NCBI RefSeq assembly: GCF_016918855.1
Contig: NZ_JADKYB010000003.1
Location: 310,001-374,000, forward strand
Length of the DNA: 64,000 nucleotides
Direction of reading: 5' to 3'
DNA from: Actinacidiphila acididurans
GTDB lineage: Bacteria; Actinomycetota; Actinomycetes; Streptomycetales; Streptomycetaceae
Under the pieces are notes generated by a model, which was given only the letters and a program-made list of their open reading frames with translations, was not told the origin of the DNA and did not search any database. Made by a program: the position numbers and the translations under genes. This document shows, in pieces, positions 46,161-57,573 of the stretch (position 1 is the first letter of the stretch; every line of letters begins with the position of its first letter).

Positions 46161-46292
46161 CAGCCGTCGCGGCCCCTTGGTTTGTCTGCTTTTGCACTTT
46201 AGGTGACGCTCTTTCACCCCCTAGCGTGGGCAGTCGGCGTGGACGAAGCCGGTTCGAGAATGCGATGCCCCGACGAAAGGGAGAAGCCCCGC

Positions 46293-47141
46293 ATGGGAAA
46301 GGTTTCCACCAAAGGTGTCTGGAAGAGCGTCAGCGTGGACGAGTCGATCATCACCGGGCTGAACACCAATTACATCCGGTGGGGCGAGGCGCCGGAGGGC
46401 CGCAGGAGCGGCTATTTCTTCCGGGGCCGTGAGGTCGAGGCGAAGCTCGACGGCACCGAATTCGTGCTGGGCACGTTCACGCACCACAACTTCCCGATCG
46501 TGCTCGCGTACACGCAGTTCTACGCCTACCTCGACGTCGACGTGACCTTCGAGGACCAGACCAGCGTCCACCTGCCCTCGTTACGGTTCCACCACAACGA
46601 GACGCCCAACGTGGGCGAGCACCAGGAGGACATCGTCCTGCTGCCGAACATCGACGAGAACCGGACCGTGAAGGTCAACGGCGAGGACTACCTGGTGCAG
46701 ATCACCGGCTTCACCCGGGAAGGCGTGCGCCACATCCCGCAGTTCACCAGCCCGGAGAACGGCCGCAACAGCGCGGACGTCAAAGCCCTGTTCGCCCGTG
46801 TCGGCCAGCCCAACAGCTACATCTCCCACGTGCAGTCGCACGGCCACTCGGCGAACCGGCAGGCCGACGAGTACGTCGAAATCCTCAACGGCGGCGCGGA
46901 ACCGCACGACATCTCCGGCTGGACCCTGACGTCCGACGAGTCGGGCCACAGCTTCACCTTCCCGGAGGGCGCCACGGTCGAGTCCGGCCGGCGGGTGCGG
47001 GTCTACACCAACGAGACCCACGACGAATACGGCGGCTTCTCGTACGGCGTCGCCCACCCGGTCTGGAACAACCAGGGCGACACCGCGATCCTGGAGGACG
47101 CCGACGGAAACATGATCTCGGTCTTCCCCTACGGCGGCTGA
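46293..47141 (+). CDS. Choice-of-anchor K plus lamin-tail domain protein, TTA-containing
   Basis: A 282-residue protein with two domains. Residues about 8-165 match the choice-of-anchor K pattern (NTNYIRWGEAPEG, SGYFFRG, LGTFTHHNFPIVL). Residues about 185-280 are a lamin-tail domain (ADEYVEILNGG, ISGWTLTSDES, VWNNQGDTAILEDADG). No signal peptide is visible, odd for domains usually found outside cells. Codon 97 (46581-46583) is TTA, so translation may need the bldA tRNA. ATG at 46293 follows AAAGGGAGAAG. The function is unknown. Confidence 0.8.
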   Translation: MGKVSTKGVWKSVSVDESIITGLNTNYIRWGEAPEGRRSGYFFRGREVEAKLDGTEFVLGTFTHHNFPIVLAYTQFYAYLDVDVTFEDQTSVHLPSLRFHHNETPNVGEHQEDIVLLPNIDENRTVKVNGEDYLVQITGFTREGVRHIPQFTSPENGRNSADVKALFARVGQPNSYISHVQSHGHSANRQADEYVEILNGGAEPHDISGWTLTSDESGHSFTFPEGATVESGRRVRVYTNETHDEYGGFSYGVAHPVWNNQGDTAILEDADGNMISVFPYGG

Positions 47142-47221: not shown

Positions 47222-47833
47222 CTACAGGAGCCAGCGGTTGTCGCGGACGAAGGGGAGGCGGGCCCAGATCCGGCCCAGGCCCCAGGTGTTGCCGGCGTAG
47301 GAGGCGGCGAAGAGGATCATCGCCAGGGCGTAGAGGACGTGGTAGTCGATGAGCGGGTTGCTGGAGCCGGTGGGGGCGCCGGTGGTCAGGTGCTGGGCGA
47401 GCGGCCATTCGGCGGCCCACATCATGGCCATCAGGGCGGTGCCGGCGACGGCGGTGATCCGCAGGGCGACCCCGCTGGTCAGGGCGAGTCCGATGCCGAG
47501 CAGGCCGAGCATGAACAGTGTGTCGGCCCAGCCGGTGCCCGCGATGTCGTGGAAGAAGGACCGCAGCGGGCCGGCCTGCACGCCGGACAGGAAGCCCTTG
47601 GTGGGCGAGCCGCCGTCGATCCAGCCCTTGCCCGAGCCGGTGGCGTAGTGCAGCCCGAAGGCCTTGTCGAGGAACGCCCAGAGGAAGACTCCGCCGGTGG
47701 CGATCCGGACCACAGCCGCGGCCCGCGCTGCGGCCGGGGTCATGACGGCACTGTGCCGGGGTGCGGTTCGCGCCGCTTCGACGGCCGGCACCTGCATGCG
47801 CGACGTCGGGCGGGACTCCTGGTGAACGGCCAT
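47222..47833 (-). CDS. DoxX-like integral membrane protein
   Basis: A 203-residue membrane protein with about four helices. It resembles the DoxX/DoxD family (IATGGVFLWAFLDKAFGLHY, GWADTLFMLGLLGIGLALTSG, LIDYHVLYALAMILFAASYA), related to quinol/thiosulfate-linked membrane redox proteins. ATG at 47833 follows AAGGGGGG. A GGGCCGAACGGCCC box lies 103 bases upstream, making it a likely member of the dormancy regulon. A precise reaction is not known. Confidence 0.8.
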   Translation of the reverse strand: MAVHQESRPTSRMQVPAVEAARTAPRHSAVMTPAAARAAAVVRIATGGVFLWAFLDKAFGLHYATGSGKGWIDGGSPTKGFLSGVQAGPLRSFFHDIAGTGWADTLFMLGLLGIGLALTSGVALRITAVAGTALMAMMWAAEWPLAQHLTTGAPTGSSNPLIDYHVLYALAMILFAASYAGNTWGLGRIWARLPFVRDNRWLL

Positions 47834-47935
47834 GACGGCCCCCCTTGCTGATCGGTGGTGCAGGTCGTTTGCTGACGTCATCACTGTCCCGCCGGGCCCC
47901 CTGCCGCCGCTGGGGGCGCAGGGCCCGTATCCGCT

Positions 47936-48033
47936 GGGCCGAACGGCCCCATGTCCGGGCCTGGTTGGCACCTTGGTACCTGGTACGCCCATGGCATCCG
48001 CCACGTCACGGTCGTCATTGGGCCTCTTGGCGC
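47936..48033. promoter_or_regulatory. Osd/DosR-type boxes before the DoxX-like gene
   Basis: GGGCCGAACGGCCC (47936-47949) is a perfect-arm palindrome of the type that recurs before other island genes. GGGCCTCTTGGCGC (48020-48033) is a degenerate second copy. Confidence 0.65.
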
Positions 48034-48132: not shown

Positions 48133-48969
48133 TCAGCCGCGGGGGACCGGGATCACGGCCACCGGGCAGTGGGAGTGCCGGAGCAGTGCCTGGGCGACCG
48201 GGCCGAGCCGCAGCCGCTCCGGGCGTACCCGGCGGTGGCGGACCGCGATGACCGCGAGCTCCGCGTCGGCCGTCGCCGCGAGCAGCGCGCGCCACGGGGT
48301 GCCGCGTACCGACCATGTCACGACGCGCAGTTGAGGGTGCGTCTCACGCAGCGGTGCCACGGCGACGCCCGGCAGGCAGGCCGCGGTCGCCGCCTGCCGC
48401 GCGAGGTCGGATTCGACCGGACCGGCGGGGGAGCCGTACACCGGCTGCCGGTCCGTCCAGGCATGCAGCACGCACACATGGGTGCGGCGCATCTCCGCCT
48501 CCTCGAAGGCGAACAGCGCCGCTTCCGCGGCCTCGGCGCCGCCCACGCCGAGGAGTACGCCGCGCGGGCCGCTGTGCTCCGGGCCGGACGGCTCCCGGCC
48601 GCGCACCACGAGCAGCGGTCCGTGCACTCGGACGGCGAGCCGCTGCCCGACCGCGTGCGGCAGCAGCCCGCCGGTCCCGACGGCCGCCCGCGCGCCGACG
48701 ACCGTCAGCGCGGCGCCCCGGCTGCGTTCGGCCAGTACCTGCACCGGGTCGCCGACGACCGCCGACGCACGCAGGATCAGGTCCGGGTGACGCTCTTTCA
48801 CCCGGTCCGACGCCGAGCGCAGCACCGGCGTCGCCTCCGCCAGATCGTTCACGCAGCACACGATCTCCAGTGCCGTCGCCCGCCGTTCGGCCTCCGACGC
48901 CGCCGCGTCCAGCGCCCGGAAGGCCGCCACCGACCCGTCCACGCCCACCACTGTGCGCCGCTCGCGCAT
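48133..48969 (-). CDS. Universal stress protein, two UspA domains
   Basis: A 278-residue protein made of two UspA-like domains. The first starts TVVGVDGSVAAFRALDAAAS and ends with an ATP-binding-like GTGGLLPHAVGQRLAVRVHGPLL split; the second starts VLLGVGGAEAAEAALFAF and ends RLRLGPVAQALLRHSHCPVA. Domain 2 has diverged at the GxGG-type site. Such tandem stress proteins belong to the DosR/OsdR dormancy regulon in actinobacteria. ATG at 48969; an island box lies about 95 bases upstream. Confidence 0.9.
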   Translation of the reverse strand: MRERRTVVGVDGSVAAFRALDAAASEAERRATALEIVCCVNDLAEATPVLRSASDRVKERHPDLILRASAVVGDPVQVLAERSRGAALTVVGARAAVGTGGLLPHAVGQRLAVRVHGPLLVVRGREPSGPEHSGPRGVLLGVGGAEAAEAALFAFEEAEMRRTHVCVLHAWTDRQPVYGSPAGPVESDLARQAATAACLPGVAVAPLRETHPQLRVVTWSVRGTPWRALLAATADAELAVIAVRHRRVRPERLRLGPVAQALLRHSHCPVAVIPVPRG

Positions 48970-49061
48970 GACCCTGCCCTCCCGTTCGGCTCACTTCTGC
49001 CGCCGTCGATCCTCGGCGCCGCCGCCGGGAGCCGGACAGTGCCGGACGAGCCCTGCCCGCA

Positions 49062-49169
49062 GGGCCGTTCGGCCCTCGGCCGCAGGGACCGTGCGGTGAG
49101 ACGGGCGGGAGGTTGCCGTGCGCCGCCCGGGAGTGCCCGATGCGCCCCCGCCCGGGGGCCCTTCGGCCC
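49062..49169. promoter_or_regulatory. Osd/DosR-type boxes between the first USP and flavoprotein genes
   Basis: GGGCCGTTCGGCCC (49062-49075, extended by flanking A and T to 16 bp) and GGGCCCTTCGGCCC (49156-49169) stand in a divergent intergenic region. The first serves the leftward USP gene, the second the rightward flavoprotein gene. Confidence 0.7.
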
Positions 49170-49206
49170 ATGCCGCTCGCGGGCCCCGCGCCGGACCGTG
49201 AAGGCC

Positions 49207-49788
49207 ATGACCACACACATCCTGATCGTGGGCCGCGGGCCCAGCGGCACCCTGGCCGCCAACCGGCTGCGCCTGGCCTACGACGGCGACGGCGTCGAGA
49301 TCACCGTCGTCGACCGGTCCGGCCCCGCACGCGACCCCGAAATCGAACTCCTCACCGCCATCGGCCTGTACGGCCCCGGCACCCTCCGGGCCCCCGAACA
49401 CCGGGACCTGCGCGACGGCATCCGCCCCCGCCACGCCGAGGCCGTCACCCTCGCGCCCGACCGGGAGGAGGCGACCCTCACCGACGGCACCGCCCTGGCC
49501 TACGACATCCTGGTCGTGGCCACCGGCGCACCGCCCCCCGCACAACCCCGCACCGGCTTCGCCGCCCGCGCCGGACTGTGCGACAGCCGCGGCTACGTCG
49601 TCGTGGACCCGCACACACAGCGCTCGCCGGCCCGCCCGCGCGTCTTCGCCCTCGGCGGCGCCACCCGACTCCCCACCGGCCGTGTGGCCCAGGCCGAGAC
49701 CCTGGTCAGGCAGGTCCGTGCGGTGCTCGCAGACGCGGCCGGTGCCGCCCCGAACGGCGACCGCTGGAGCGCCGCCGGCCCCGCCTGA
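49207..49788 (+). CDS. Reduced FAD-dependent oxidoreductase without NAD domain
   Basis: A 193-residue protein related to type II NADH dehydrogenases and sulfide:quinone reductases, which are about twice as long. It has the N-terminal FAD motif HILIVGRGPSGTLAANRL, the second FAD motif YDILVVATGAPP, and the C-terminal RVFALGGATRLPTGRVAQAE. The whole NAD(P)-binding domain normally lying between them is absent, and the usual GD of the last motif is GG. It may be a flavin-binding remnant or a new small redox protein. ATG at 49207; an island box lies 38 bases upstream. Confidence 0.75.
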   Translation: MTTHILIVGRGPSGTLAANRLRLAYDGDGVEITVVDRSGPARDPEIELLTAIGLYGPGTLRAPEHRDLRDGIRPRHAEAVTLAPDREEATLTDGTALAYDILVVATGAPPPAQPRTGFAARAGLCDSRGYVVVDPHTQRSPARPRVFALGGATRLPTGRVAQAETLVRQVRAVLADAAGAAPNGDRWSAAGPA

Positions 49789-52074: not shown

Positions 52075-52944
52075 TCAGCTCTCCTGGGGCACTATCGCCA
52101 CCGGGCACGGCGCGTGGTGGAGGAGGGCGTGGTTGACCGGGCCCAGTTGGAGGCCGACGGTGCCGTGGCGGCGGCGGGCTCCTGCGACGAGGAGATCGCC
52201 GGGGCGGGCGGCCGACAGGAGGGCGGTACGGGGCCGGCCCTCGGGGACCTGGGTGCGGACGGTGACGTTCGGGTAATCCTGGGCGGGGGCGGCGAGCGCT
52301 TCCTCCAACTCGCGGGTCGCGGCGCGGACTTCGGGAGCGGCGCCGCCGCCCGCGGCGTAGAGGGCACCGGGCGGGTCGGCGCCCGGGCGGCGCCAGGCGT
52401 GCAGGGCGACGAGTTCGGCGTCGTGGGCCGCGGCCTCGCCGAGGGCGAATCCGGTCGCCGCGGCCGACCCGCCCGCGTTCTCGACGCCCAGGACGACCCG
52501 GGCGACCGAGGGCCGGTTCTCCGGGCCGCGGACGACCACCACCGGGCATTCGGCCCGCCCCGCGACGACGAGCCCGGTGGAGCCGAGCAGCAGGCCGGCG
52601 AGTTCGCCGCGGCCGCGGTCGCCGACCACGACCGCGAAGGCGTCCCGGCCCTCCCGGATCAGGGCGGCGGCCGGATCCTCGGCCGGCACGTCGGTGCTGA
52701 CCGGCACGTCGCGGGCGACGTCGGCGACGTGCCGGGCCGCCGCGCCCACCACCTGCTCCGCCGGTACCAGGCCGTCCGGGCCGTCCGTACCGGACCCGGG
52801 CGTCACGTGCGTGTAGTGGTCCCACAGCGAGCCGTACACGATCCGCAGCGGCACCCCGCGGGCGGACGCCTCCGCTGCCGCCCAGTCCAGCGCCCGCAGA
52901 CTCCGCTCCGAGCCGTCCACGCCCACGACCAGCGGCTTGCTCAT
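52075..52944 (-). CDS. Universal stress protein, two UspA domains
   Basis: A 289-residue tandem UspA protein. Domain 1 (about 1-148) starts PLVVGVDGSERSLRALDWAA and ends VVGDRGRGELAGLLLGSTGL, an intact ATP-binding GxxGxxxGS-like loop; domain 2 starts RVVLGVENAGGSAAATGFAL and ends GARRRHGTVGLQLGPVNHAL. It is a paralogue of the protein at 48133-48969. ATG at 52944; a degenerate island box lies about 90 bases upstream. Role by family: ATP-linked stress survival, often under hypoxia. Confidence 0.9.
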   Translation of the reverse strand: MSKPLVVGVDGSERSLRALDWAAAEASARGVPLRIVYGSLWDHYTHVTPGSGTDGPDGLVPAEQVVGAAARHVADVARDVPVSTDVPAEDPAAALIREGRDAFAVVVGDRGRGELAGLLLGSTGLVVAGRAECPVVVVRGPENRPSVARVVLGVENAGGSAAATGFALGEAAAHDAELVALHAWRRPGADPPGALYAAGGGAAPEVRAATRELEEALAAPAQDYPNVTVRTQVPEGRPRTALLSAARPGDLLVAGARRRHGTVGLQLGPVNHALLHHAPCPVAIVPQES

Positions 52945-53029
52945 GACCGCATCCCCTTCCGATGCGCGATATCGGAGAACGTGTCGCTTTGTCGCCATTC
53001 GCCGTCGCGCACGACAGCGCCGAGGATCA

Positions 53030-53841: not shown

Positions 53842-54537
53842 ATGAGCGAGTCACGGCAGTTCTCCCCGCAGTCCCCGATCCGGGTGTTCCTGCTCGACGA
53901 CCACGAGGTGGTCCGGCGGGGCGTGCACGACCTGCTCGACGGCGAGCCGGACATCGAGGTGGTCGGCGAGGCCGGGACCGCGGCCCACGCCCTGGCCCGC
54001 GGGCCGGCCCTGCGGCCGGACGTGGCCGTGCTGGACGTGCGCCTGCCGGACAGCGACGGGATCACGGTGTGCCGCGAGCTGCGCTCCCGTATGCCGGGCC
54101 TGGCCTGCCTGATGCTCACCTCCTTCGACGACGACGACGCTCTGCTGGACGCGATCATGGCCGGTGCCGCGGGCTATGTGCTCAAGCAGATCAAGGGCTC
54201 CGACCTGGTCTCGGCGGTCCGTACCGTCGCCGCCGGGCAGTCGATGCTGGACCCGGCCACCACCGCCCGGCTGATGAGCAGCCTGCGCGACGACGCCGCG
54301 CCCGCCGAACCGGAGCAGCAGGCGCTGGCCGCCCTCTCGCCGCGCGAGCGGGAGATCCTGGGCCTGATCGGCGAAGGGCTGACGAACCGGCAGATCGGCC
54401 AGCGGCTGTACCTGTCGGAGAAGACGGTGAAGAACAACGTCTCCCGGCTGCTGGCCAAGCTCGGCGTCGAACGCCGCGTCCAGGCCGCGGTCATCGCCAC
54501 CCAGGGCACCCCCGGAGCCGAGCACGACTCCAGGTGA
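53842..54537 (+). CDS. DevR/OsdR-like response regulator
   Basis: A 231-residue NarL/FixJ-family regulator. The receiver domain has the acidic pair in [14 protein letters not shown] and the phospho-acceptor Asp65 in [31 protein letters not shown] and [12 protein letters not shown] match DevR very closely. The LuxR HTH is [40 protein letters not shown]. The neighbours are the same classes of gene that DosR and OsdR control, and GGGCCG-NN-CGGCCC boxes precede them. The cognate kinase is probably the GAF kinase at 55837-57573. Confidence 0.92.
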
Positions 54538-54776: not shown

Positions 54777-55754
54777 ATGACCACCGCAGAACTGGACGCG
54801 ACGACGCTGGAAAAGCTGATCTCGGCGGCCGTGGCCGCGCCCTCCATCCACAACACCCAGCCCTGGCGCTACCGGCTCGACCCGGACACCGCCACCATCG
54901 AGGTGTGGGCGGCGGCCGACCGCGCCCTGCCGCACACCGACCCCGCCGGGCGCGCCCTGCACGTCTCGGTCGGCGCGGCCGTGTTCAACCTGCGGGTGGC
55001 CGTCGCCCACTTCGGCTGGGAGCCGCTGGTCCGGCTGCTGCCCCGGCCCGCGCGACCGGCGCTGCTGGCCACCGTACGGCCGGCCGGCCCGCGCCGGGAC
55101 CGGTCGCTGCGCCGCCCCGACCTGTACGACACCGTGTGGCGCCGGCACAGCAGCCGCTTCCCGTTCTCCGCCGACCCCGTGCCCGCCGACGTGCGGACCG
55201 AACTCGTCGAGGCCGCGACGGTCGAAGGGGCGCGGCTGAGCCTGCCCGGGCCGGCCGAGACCGCGCGGATCCTGCGGCTGACCGCGGAGGCCGAGCACCT
55301 GTCGGCCGCCGACCCCGGCCGCAGGGCCGAGATCCGGGCCTGGCTCCGCGACGCCGCCGCGTCCGACGGCATCCCCGCCGCTGCCCTCGGCCCGCGCGAC
55401 GCCACCGGCCGCATACCGGTACGGGATTTCGCCGCGCCCCGGCCCGTCCCGGAGGCGGCCCCCTTCGAGGCGCGCCCGGTCATCGGCGTGCTGAGCACCG
55501 CGCACGACACCCGCGCCGACTGGCTGCGCACCGGGCTGGCCCTGGAGCACGTGCTGCTGACCGCCACCGCGCACAAGGTACGGGCTTCTCTGCTCAGCCA
55601 GGCCACCGAATGGCCCGACCTGCGCTGGGCCCTGCGCGACCCGCGCGGCGGCCCCGAACACGTCCAGATGCTCGTCCGGCTCGGCTACGGCCCCGACGGC
55701 CCGCCCACCCCGCGCCGCCCGGCCCGCGAGGTCCTGGGTCGCACAAACGTCTGA
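54777..55754 (+). CDS. Acg-like nitroreductase-family protein
   Basis: A 325-residue flavin nitroreductase-fold protein of the Acg branch, a two-domain form about 1.5 times the normal nitroreductase length. The signature is AAVAAPSIHNTQPWRYRL near the N-terminus; LYDTVWRRHSSRFPFSADPV and the C-terminal QMLVRLGYGPDGPPTPRRPA agree. Rv2032 (Acg) is a DosR-regulon member thought to bind FMN without typical nitroreductase activity. ATG at 54777 follows AGGGGAGACGGCC. Two island boxes are upstream. Confidence 0.9.
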   Translation: MTTAELDATTLEKLISAAVAAPSIHNTQPWRYRLDPDTATIEVWAAADRALPHTDPAGRALHVSVGAAVFNLRVAVAHFGWEPLVRLLPRPARPALLATVRPAGPRRDRSLRRPDLYDTVWRRHSSRFPFSADPVPADVRTELVEAATVEGARLSLPGPAETARILRLTAEAEHLSAADPGRRAEIRAWLRDAAASDGIPAAALGPRDATGRIPVRDFAAPRPVPEAAPFEARPVIGVLSTAHDTRADWLRTGLALEHVLLTATAHKVRASLLSQATEWPDLRWALRDPRGGPEHVQMLVRLGYGPDGPPTPRRPAREVLGRTNV

Positions 55755-55836: not shown

Positions 55837-57573
55837 TCAGTCCGCCGCCATCGGCGCCAGCGGCACCTGCCAGCGCACCCGGGTGCCGGGGCCCGCGCCG
55901 GTGCCCAGGCCCGGTCCGGTCTCGAAGGTCCCGCCGAGGCGTTCCGCGCGCTCGGCGAGATTGCGCAGGCCGCTGCGGCGGCCGCCGGCCGGCAGGCCGA
56001 CGCCGTTGTCCGTGACCGTGACGGTGAGGGTCGGGCCGGTGACGACCAGCGCGACCTCGGCGGCGGTGGCCCCGGCGTGCCGGGCGATGTTCGACAGCGC
56101 CTCGGCCAGGACCGCCACGACGTCCTCCACGACCGGCTGCGGCACCTCGGTGTCCAGCAGCCCCTCCATGTGCAGGGCCGGGGTGAACCCCAGGGTCCGC
56201 GCGGCCTGCTCCACGCTCGCCGAGGCCCGCGAGCGCAGCCCCTGGGGCCGCCGCTCGGCCTCCTTGGCGCGCAGACCGAAGATCGTGGACCGGATGATCT
56301 TGATGGTTTCGTCCAGGTCGTCCACGGCCCGCATCAGCCGCTCGCTCGCCTGCGGGTGGTCCACGAAACGCAGCGCGCTCTGGAGCGTCATGCCGGTTGC
56401 GAAGAGCCGCTGGATGGCCAGGTCGTGCAGGTCACGGGCGATGCGGTCGCGGTCCTCCAGCAGGGTGAGCTGTTCGGCGGACCGGCGCCGCTCGGCCAGC
56501 TCCATCGCCAGCGCCGCCTGGCCGGCGAAGGCCAGCAGGGGAGCGGCCTCGGCCGCGGAGAACGGCGGCGCCCCCTCCTCCCGGGCCAGCAGTAGCGCGC
56601 CGCGCCCGCCCTCGTCCGTCGTCATCGGCACAGCCAGCGCCGGCCCGAGACCGGCGAACCGCGGCGGCCCGGCCGTCACCCGCGGGTCCTTCTGCACCTC
56701 CGCGGTGGTGATCGGCTCGCCCGCGGTCATCGCCGCGCCCATGAACGACCCCTCGCGCGGCAGCCGCAGCCCTTGGTGCGCCTGTGCGTCGGTGCCCATC
56801 GCGATCATCACCCGCAGGTCGGTGCTGTCCTCCACCAGCAGCGCCAGCGCCCCCAGATCGGCCCCGGCGATGCTCCGGGCGTGCCGGACGATGCCGTGCA
56901 GTACGTCGGTCTCCGCCGCGCCCGACAGCAGATGGGCCACGACCTCGGCGTTCGCCTCCATCCAGCGCTGCCGGTCCCGGGCGGCCTTGTACAGCCGGGC
57001 GTTCTCGATCGCGACGCCCGCCGCCACCGCGAGGGTGCCGAGCACCGTCTCGTCCTCGGCGTCGAACTCGCTGCCGCCGCGCTTCTGCGCCATGTAGAGG
57101 TTGCCGAACACCTCCTCGCGGACCCGGATCGGCACCCCGAGGAAGCTGTGCATCGGCGGGTGGTTCGGCGGGAAGCCGTACGAGGCCGGGTGGTCGGAGA
57201 TCTCCCGCAGCCGCAGCGGCTCCGGGTGCCGGATCAGCTCGCCCAGGATGCCGTGGCCGGACGGCAGCGGACCGATGGCCCGTGCCTGCTCCTCGGTGAC
57301 GCCCACGGTCAGGAACTCCGACAGGCGCGTGCCCTCGATCACCCCCAGCGCCCCGTACTCGGCGTCGACGAGCTCCACCGCGGACTCCACGATCTGCCGC
57401 AGCACCTGCGGCAGATCCAGCTCGCGGCCGACCGAGAGCACGGCCTCCAGCAGGCTGTGCACCCGGTTCTGCGTGCCGCGCACCGCGTCGATGCGCACCT
57501 GGAGCTCGTCCAGCAACTCGTCCAGCCGCAGGCGGGGCAGCCGCCCGCCGTCCCTGTCGATGCCCTCGCCCAC
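55837..57573 (-). CDS. DevS/OsdK-like GAF histidine kinase
   Basis: A 578-residue cytoplasmic sensor kinase: GAF-A (about 45-190), GAF-B (about 215-360), HisKA_3 with the phospho-His in DRIARDLHDLAIQRLFATGM, and an ATPase with EALSNIARHAGAT, VTDNGVGLP and GLRNLAERAERLGG. GAF-A keeps NHPPM with His138 and LYMAQK with Tyr160; the 22-residue spacing equals that of DevS heme His149 and distal Tyr171, so it probably binds heme and senses O2, NO or CO. GTG at 57573 follows GGAGGATCCCG, better than the GTG at 57627. It converges on the nitroreductase gene. Confidence 0.9.
   Translation of the reverse strand: MGEGIDRDGGRLPRLRLDELLDELQVRIDAVRGTQNRVHSLLEAVLSVGRELDLPQVLRQIVESAVELVDAEYGALGVIEGTRLSEFLTVGVTEEQARAIGPLPSGHGILGELIRHPEPLRLREISDHPASYGFPPNHPPMHSFLGVPIRVREEVFGNLYMAQKRGGSEFDAEDETVLGTLAVAAGVAIENARLYKAARDRQRWMEANAEVVAHLLSGAAETDVLHGIVRHARSIAGADLGALALLVEDSTDLRVMIAMGTDAQAHQGLRLPREGSFMGAAMTAGEPITTAEVQKDPRVTAGPPRFAGLGPALAVPMTTDEGGRGALLLAREEGAPPFSAAEAAPLLAFAGQAALAMELAERRRSAEQLTLLEDRDRIARDLHDLAIQRLFATGMTLQSALRFVDHPQASERLMRAVDDLDETIKIIRSTIFGLRAKEAERRPQGLRSRASASVEQAARTLGFTPALHMEGLLDTEVPQPVVEDVVAVLAEALSNIARHAGATAAEVALVVTGPTLTVTVTDNGVGLPAGGRRSGLRNLAERAERLGGTFETGPGLGTGAGPGTRVRWQVPLAPMAAD

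Follow-up and report, generated by a model that had tools for sequence, protein, structure and literature searches.

The closest described relatives of the short protein reported here are the type III sulfide:quinone reductases (SQRs; NF049943), which resemble it in the N-terminal FAD half (38-42% identity to five long rows), in the closing strand and helix and, for several long genes, in the position of an upstream box, and from which it differs in lacking the middle domain, both conserved cysteines, the C-terminal part and the last GD motif. The closest solved fold is that of the Acidithiobacillus ferrooxidans SQR (PDB 3szf, 3t31), which likewise has no Asp at the last motif, where the alignment reads GI, but which is a complete quinone reductase of 434-437 residues. 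This enzyme presumably holds FAD, and since it reads GI at that place a change from GD to GG says little when taken alone. NDH-2 (PDB 5kmq, 4nwz) belongs to the same superfamily and shares the FAD-domain fold (Z 14.2, 151 aligned, 4.5 Å); it is a weaker match than SQR (Z 14.2 against 16.2), and its NAD(H) domain is absent from the short protein. As to regulation, the OsdR/DevR regulon of Streptomyces coelicolor has the box consensus AGGGCCGATCGGCCCT, which is also found upstream of our gene, and its predicted targets include universal stress protein (USP) and nitroreductase genes as well as SCO6039, a "flavoprotein oxidoreductase, CoA disulfide reductase"; by way of difference, the main text contains no word beginning with "sulfide" or "doxx" (available part of PMC5069765). 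For mycobacteria, an oxidoreductase complex has been proposed in which a DoxX-domain protein joins SodA and SseA (available part of PMC10943396). The literature searched, mostly outside subscription journals, holds no apparent description of a short SQR-derived protein of this kind.

The gene, named mini-SQR, lies in a window of 64,000 nucleotides of Actinacidiphila acididurans, the window being the whole stretch of DNA that was analysed. Its features are the following.

49207..49788, + strand: mini-SQR, short flavoprotein of 193 aa (open reading frame and translation; one of an 11-member short family)
49231..49248, + strand: GxGxxG dinucleotide motif, residues 9-14 (G9, G11 and G14 invariant in 11/11 shorts)
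49519..49527, + strand: second FAD motif ATG, residues 105-107 (A105, T106 and G107 invariant in 11/11)
49551..49552, + strand: deletion junction, residues 115/116, equal to parent 115/~256 (alignment with the full-length SQR L036)
49654..49659, + strand: GG where the parent has its last GD motif, residues 150-151 (alignment rows)

The frame is intact from the ATG at 49207 to the stop which ends at 49788, and GC at codon positions 1, 2 and 3 (0.79/0.60/0.92) is like that of the other short genes, in agreement with the normal codon use claimed by the original prediction. Translation and alignment with L036 (413 aa) likewise bear out its description of an ORF with two FAD motifs, no middle Rossmann domain and GG at the last motif. 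Residues 1-115 correspond to 1-115 of L036 and residues 116-193 to about 256-344; missing are some 140 residues of the parent's middle domain and all parent sequence past about 344 of 413. The claim that the FAD motifs are joined to the C-terminal region stands for residues 116-193 but not for the C-terminal part, presumably the quinone/membrane part of SQR, which is lost too. What had been called a lost NAD(P)-binding domain was misnamed, as the missing middle domain bears one of the two conserved cysteines of the parent. Neither cysteine of this pair (162 and 335 of L036), which we take to be catalytic and redox-active, is kept in the short members; these have no cysteine common to all of them, and two of the 11 are cysteine-free. 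With the cysteines and the C-terminal part lost, neither SQR nor NADH dehydrogenase chemistry is to be expected. Of the hallmarks of a GR-type FAD domain, GxGxxG, the Asp/Glu after strand 2 (D36, invariant in 11/11 shorts), ATG and an FAD-type fold are present, and the last GD motif is absent from 11/11 shorts, its Asp being invariant in 4/4 full-length rows and missing from all 11 short rows.

The parent had originally been thought NDH-2-like. Profile, fold and tree all place SQR closer, and NDH-2 parentage was rejected; the NAD(H)-binding Rossmann domain of NDH-2 has no counterpart, the middle domain being absent. The best NCBIfam match of mini-SQR is the type III SQR profile NF049943 (71 bits, best stretch 4-117), far from the cutoff of 525 bits for full-profile membership, a value exceeded by L036 (552 bits over 2-405 of 406) and not attained by the near full-length L034 (332 bits). 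In Pfam, Pyr_redox_2 matches two stretches of mini-SQR (56 bits against a cutoff of 26.1), and the N terminus is also matched by an FAD-NAD(P)-binding model. In a 38-row tree built from the N-terminal 112-113 residues all 11 shorts fall in a single clade (100/100) with a long stem (0.65), and this clade joins three long SQRs of the genus with support 96/99, which indicates common descent with type III SQR; L012, which carries a frame break, was left out of both alignments and kept in the tree. Derivation of mini-SQR from a type III SQR is thus highly probable, and the shortening of an SQR copy apparently happened once, in one Streptomycetaceae lineage. The neighbourhoods of the full-length SQRs L089-L095 are a sulfur context, with a DsrC/TusE relative nearby in 7/7 and a DsrE2-like one in 6/7, while the neighbourhood of a frame-broken SQR (L088) has neither. 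Selenocysteine was considered for the TGA-bearing SQR relatives L075, L076 and L066 and rejected, the TGA being the terminal stop.

Every first-look candidate of the 35 genus genomes was scored, and 12 of these genomes contain 16 matches in all at E<=1e-15. Eleven are short genes (163-210 aa, the window's included) in ten genomes, and five are long genes in G028 and G029, so that homologues of the same architecture exist and the possibility, allowed for by the original prediction, that all of them are full length is not borne out. At E<=0.001 the window's genome yields its two short copies and nothing else, and the short gene is absent from 25/35 genus genomes. The idea that the short protein forms a complex with a full-length type III SQR of its own cell was rejected, as 0/10 short-carrying genomes have one at E<=1e-15, the matches in G018 and G025 being the short genes themselves; mutual exclusion of the two forms within the genus is not significant (p=1). 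In the family (394 genomes, E<=1e-20) 16 genomes have a match, namely the ten short carriers, G028, G029 and four of another genus whose matches are full length by alignment. In the class (394 genomes, E<=1e-15) there are 31 genomes with a match; beyond the window's own genome 11 of 30 matches were aligned and proved to be of full or almost full length (L103 covers 397 of 413 in two pieces), and none of the other 19 extends beyond position 144 of 186, where the shorts reach 172-185, a comparison of match extent only. No short form was found outside the genus among the eight candidates scored per genome in these 394 family and 394 class genomes, a depth at which a divergent short form could escape. 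Open-frame length does not equal protein length (mini-SQR itself sits in a 650-aa open frame), and 20 long relatives were checked by alignment instead. A contig scan produced eight relatives, none of them in the short clade, and tblastn of plasmids three partial matches; one full-length relative is from Streptomyces sp. Act143.

AlphaFold2 with an 11-row alignment modelled mini-SQR at pLDDT 72.1 and pTM 0.71, with weak parts at 114-128 and 181-193, and a 163-aa member at pLDDT 79.0 and pTM 0.76; both models have a beta-alpha-beta start, a beta meander and a C-terminal helix. When VIA-align 2 was applied to the Foldseek list the SQRs came out on top (Z 16.2 with 159 aligned at 6.7 Å; Z 16.0 with 152 aligned at 4.3 Å); Foldseek TM-scores by query length are 0.36 for SQRs and up to 0.57 for some thioredoxin reductases. 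The models support the view that mini-SQR would be one FAD-type Rossmann domain, which the former C-terminal strand and helix close. Three features presumably line the flavin ring in enzymes of this type, namely the YQPG stretch, an SK pair and the last GD; in the shorts YQPG has given way to DPE-type residues, and the last GD and the SK pair are lost. FAD may therefore not bind, and the altered ring side makes a ligand-reporting, non-catalytic role slightly likelier than electron transfer.

Upstream boxes were scored with a matrix built from 18 OsdR sites (published in the available part of PMC5069765), and three concern mini-SQR and its neighbour.

49061..49076, no strand: OsdR/DevR-type box AGGGCCGTTCGGCCCT, 146 nt before the ATG (21.9 bits, best in the window)
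49155..49170, no strand: second OsdR/DevR-type box GGGGCCCTTCGGCCCA, 52 nt before the ATG (13.0 bits)
47935..47950, no strand: OsdR/DevR-type box upstream of the DoxX-like gene (16.8 bits)

The good box noted originally upstream of the gene is thus real, as a member of the OsdR/DevR regulon would have it, and it has a second one beside it. The box at 49061-49076 lies between mini-SQR and a divergent USP gene, an arrangement in which both genes can share it. Nine sites of at least 10 bits are present in the window, eight of them between 47.9 and 55.1 kb, and 48/177 genes in the short-gene neighbourhoods have a box against 1/38 window genes outside 46-58 kb. A box of at least 10 bits stands in the gene's own 300 nt upstream in 4/11 shorts (window, G022, G006 and G025) and in 7/11 once the leading gene of the presumed transcription unit, in some loci adhE or the DoxX-like gene, is taken instead; counted by presumed transcription unit, the remaining ones have 9.7 (G014), 5.8 (G024) and 3.6 bits (G018), and G031 has no box before adhE and one of 15.3 bits before the next gene up. 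All ten DoxX-like genes beside shorts have a box of at least 15.3 bits. Among the long relatives, L032, L033 and L034 carry a box 51-52 nt before the start (14.2-16.0 bits), the same place as 49155-49170, while L012, L013 and L036 have weak matches there (5.1-7.2 bits) and a MAG gene, L035, none.

Around mini-SQR the window contains a dormancy-type island, as had been predicted, made up of these genes.

47222..47833, - strand: DoxX-like membrane protein of 203 aa (accompanies the short gene in 10/11 loci)
48133..48969, - strand: universal stress protein, divergent from mini-SQR (Pfam Usp, 3.3e-24)
52075..52998, - strand: second universal stress protein (Pfam Usp, 2.2e-43)
53842..54537, + strand: response regulator with LuxR-type DNA-binding domain (Pfam Response_reg and GerE)
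54777..55754, + strand: nitroreductase-family protein (Pfam Nitroreductase, 1e-10)
55837..57573, - strand: GAF-type sensor kinase (named from sequence; homologues in 5/11 short loci)

The response regulator is OsdR/DevR-like by context only. Neighbourhoods comprised about 10 kb on each side where the contig allows, with genes called by a GC-frame script rather than a curated finder, and in most of them homologues of the same architecture also lie near dormancy-type genes. A DoxX-like gene is within 7.5 kb of the short gene in 10/11 loci (gaps of 44-7474 nt), the shortest gap being in G007, where it is 44 nt upstream on the same strand; it is found in 0/8 stretches with sulfur-type or broken SQR genes. 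A USP gene is present in 7/11 short loci, and the response regulator, nitroreductase and GAF kinase each in 5/11, while the G024 short gene has no DoxX-like or other recognised island gene nearby. In the genus the DoxX-like gene occurs in 24/35 genomes, including 10/10 short carriers and 14 of the 25 without a short gene (Fisher one-sided p=0.011 for co-occurrence, not corrected for relatedness). DoxX (PF07681) is the top Pfam family in all four DoxX-like proteins, below threshold in each case, with the best of the four at 16.7 bits against a gathering cutoff of 23.6. Convergent with the DoxX-like gene is 46203-47141, whose 312-aa product has a lamin tail domain (LTD, 1.2e-18).

AdhE was detected in 6/35 genus genomes (E<=1e-100, 25 candidates scored per genome), and in 3/3 genomes with both genes (G000, G032 and G031) adhE is directly upstream of a short gene, which starts 4 nt past the adhE stop or overlaps it; the window copy of mini-SQR is not in such an operon, and the G031 adhE is broken into two frames. 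These adhE genes (L078:7046-9664, L079:8829-11645 and L087:10197-12847), upstream of mini-SQR, code for the fermentative, bifunctional acetaldehyde-CoA/alcohol dehydrogenase. A phosphoketolase-type gene, named from sequence, stands beside the DoxX-like gene in three short-gene loci (L079:4416-6803, L085:10684-13062 and L087:14599-16983) and in G029, a pairing which suggests a fermentative hypoxia island.

Genome G029 has two near full-length SQRs among dormancy-type genes (L106:11659-12825 and L107:14304-15527), each without a different conserved cysteine. One copy is 6.9 kb from a DoxX-like gene and the other is beside a sensor kinase, 5.5 kb from adhE. The first conserved cysteine motif is lost in L034 (KCPVAP to GTPVEP) and the second in the 407-residue G029 SQR (NCFIETG to SGFVETG). 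These cysteine-losing SQRs of G029 look like steps toward the short form, and the near full-length copies are possible pseudo-enzymes or intermediates.

The explanation which we favour, at a little under an even chance for the reading as a whole, is that mini-SQR arose by miniaturisation of a type III SQR and was taken into the hypoxia regulon, where it serves as a non-catalytic accessory that binds flavin or a dinucleotide; origin and fold are computed here, and from them and the context we infer ligand, expression and function. As the computations support, the middle domain with its cysteine and the quinone/membrane part at the C terminus would have been lost from an SQR copy, leaving a predicted single FAD-type Rossmann domain, and the short gene would have been kept in frame, with boxes and mostly near a DoxX-like gene, in line with the loci described above. 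The product would bind FAD or, failing that, the ADP moiety of a dinucleotide, would no longer oxidise sulfide or NAD(P)H, and would be made in hypoxia. Its function as a non-catalytic accessory of the hypoxic programme, either redox/nucleotide-responsive or electron-relay, is more doubtful than the whole, and the likeliest partner may be the DoxX-like membrane protein, with AdhE as another candidate; the role of flavin-linked sensor or DoxX-like partner suggested originally from the sequence is possible, the linkage to the DoxX-like gene being strong (10/11 loci). Counting against the favoured reading are the drift of the C-half, the low identity of the two copies in the window's genome beside their well-conserved DoxX-like neighbours, the 25/35 genomes without the gene (14 of which have the DoxX-like gene), the isolated member in G024, the small number of shorts with a box of their own (4/11) and the loss of the presumed flavin-ring residues. 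Equally tentative is the wider suggestion that half an SQR was recruited as a redox/nucleotide component of hypoxia/dormancy together with the DoxX-like protein and, in some species, AdhE, the cysteine-losing relatives being intermediates.

That the short form is a strain-confined internal deletion or an assembly artefact is so improbable that we reject it, the same architecture being present in ten genomes, twice in the window's genome, and forming one clade. Slow decay is the strongest alternative, because the C-half drifts and 25/35 genomes lack the gene, although we consider it unlikely; under it an SQR would be eroding stepwise and would no longer be of use, its N-terminal fold being under no more than residual constraint. 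The mean differences at codon positions 1, 2 and 3 are 0.276/0.257/0.406 in the N-half of the shorts, 0.201/0.162/0.258 in the DoxX-like gene and a nearly equal 0.432/0.469/0.484 in the C-half, so the N-half is constrained and the C-half drifts nearly freely yet in frame, and the earlier view of the gene as not obviously decaying is upheld by the intact frame but not by the C-half. The dN/dS ratios of the N-half run from 0.22 to 0.73 across the 14 closest pairs listed and those of the C-half from 0.43 to 1.35, near-neutral for the latter, and median pN/pS over 55 pairs is 0.28/0.43 and 0.48/0.46, respectively, all of these being rough values with GC-biased third positions. The spread of short lengths from 210 down to 163 aa would also fit decay, as would the other SQR remnants that the genus contains: G010 has a C-terminal piece, G028 a frame break, and G029 an N-terminal piece besides its two cysteine-losing near full-length copies. 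Against decay, frames are open in 11/11 short genes at 17-34% nucleotide distance to the nearest relative, for which a neutral simulation gives about 2.4e-5 with substitutions only (0/2000 direct draws) and below 1e-19 with 5% indels; each branch was half the distance to the nearest relative, sisters were taken as independent and 2.4e-5 is the product of single rates. The short gene is therefore more than a chance product, since ten further homologues with open frames would seldom be kept by drift alone. The single clade with its long stem, the regulatory boxes kept in several short loci and new residues of the shorts, defined as sites where at least 3/4 full-length rows share another residue, also speak against decay: R86 (Ala in 4/4 full-length rows) and L91 are found in 11/11 shorts, and R42, E45 and V170 in 10/11. 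Within the drifting C-half E164 and L174 are invariant across the shorts, and the alignment of short proteins has 27 distinct internal gap intervals, of whole codons by construction.

Two further readings keep a function and change its nature, both rather improbable. In the first, mini-SQR would be a catalytic mini-flavoprotein whose FAD, with exposed ring, shuttles electrons from a soluble donor to a membrane partner such as the DoxX-like protein; the conservation of the first two FAD motifs in 11/11, the FAD-type predicted fold, adhE directly upstream wherever both occur and the frequency of the DoxX-like gene are consistent with this, but there is no second Rossmann domain, redox cysteine pair or C-terminal part, and the presumed flavin-ring contacts are lost. 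Marginally less probable again is a flavin-free nucleotide sensor, in which the single Rossmann fold would bind NAD(H) or ADP and report redox or energy state, comparable in principle to the Rossmann-fold nucleotide sensors of Rex and RCK domains. The invariance of GxGxxG and D36 while presumed ring-side residues vary points to such a sensor, as do the USP genes of 7/11 loci; the ATG motif of FAD domains is invariant as well, and no DNA-binding or output domain is present, both of which argue against it. If the half-protein, like the hypoxic accessory that we favour, still has FAD or another dinucleotide as its ligand, bacterial dormancy would have a redox component of very small size, through which the role of the DoxX-like protein could be approached; if the half-protein binds nothing, it would be a clean case of a gene kept after its chemistry was lost. 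Enzyme miniaturisation can be traced here in living relatives, from the SQR of sulfur clusters through the cysteine-missing SQR of dormancy islands to a half-protein with one Rossmann domain.

The two mini-SQRs of the window's genome are 50% and 37% identical in their N- and C-halves, and the DoxX-like genes near them (47222-47833 and L078:5893-6510) are 92% identical, which is a striking difference in rate or history.
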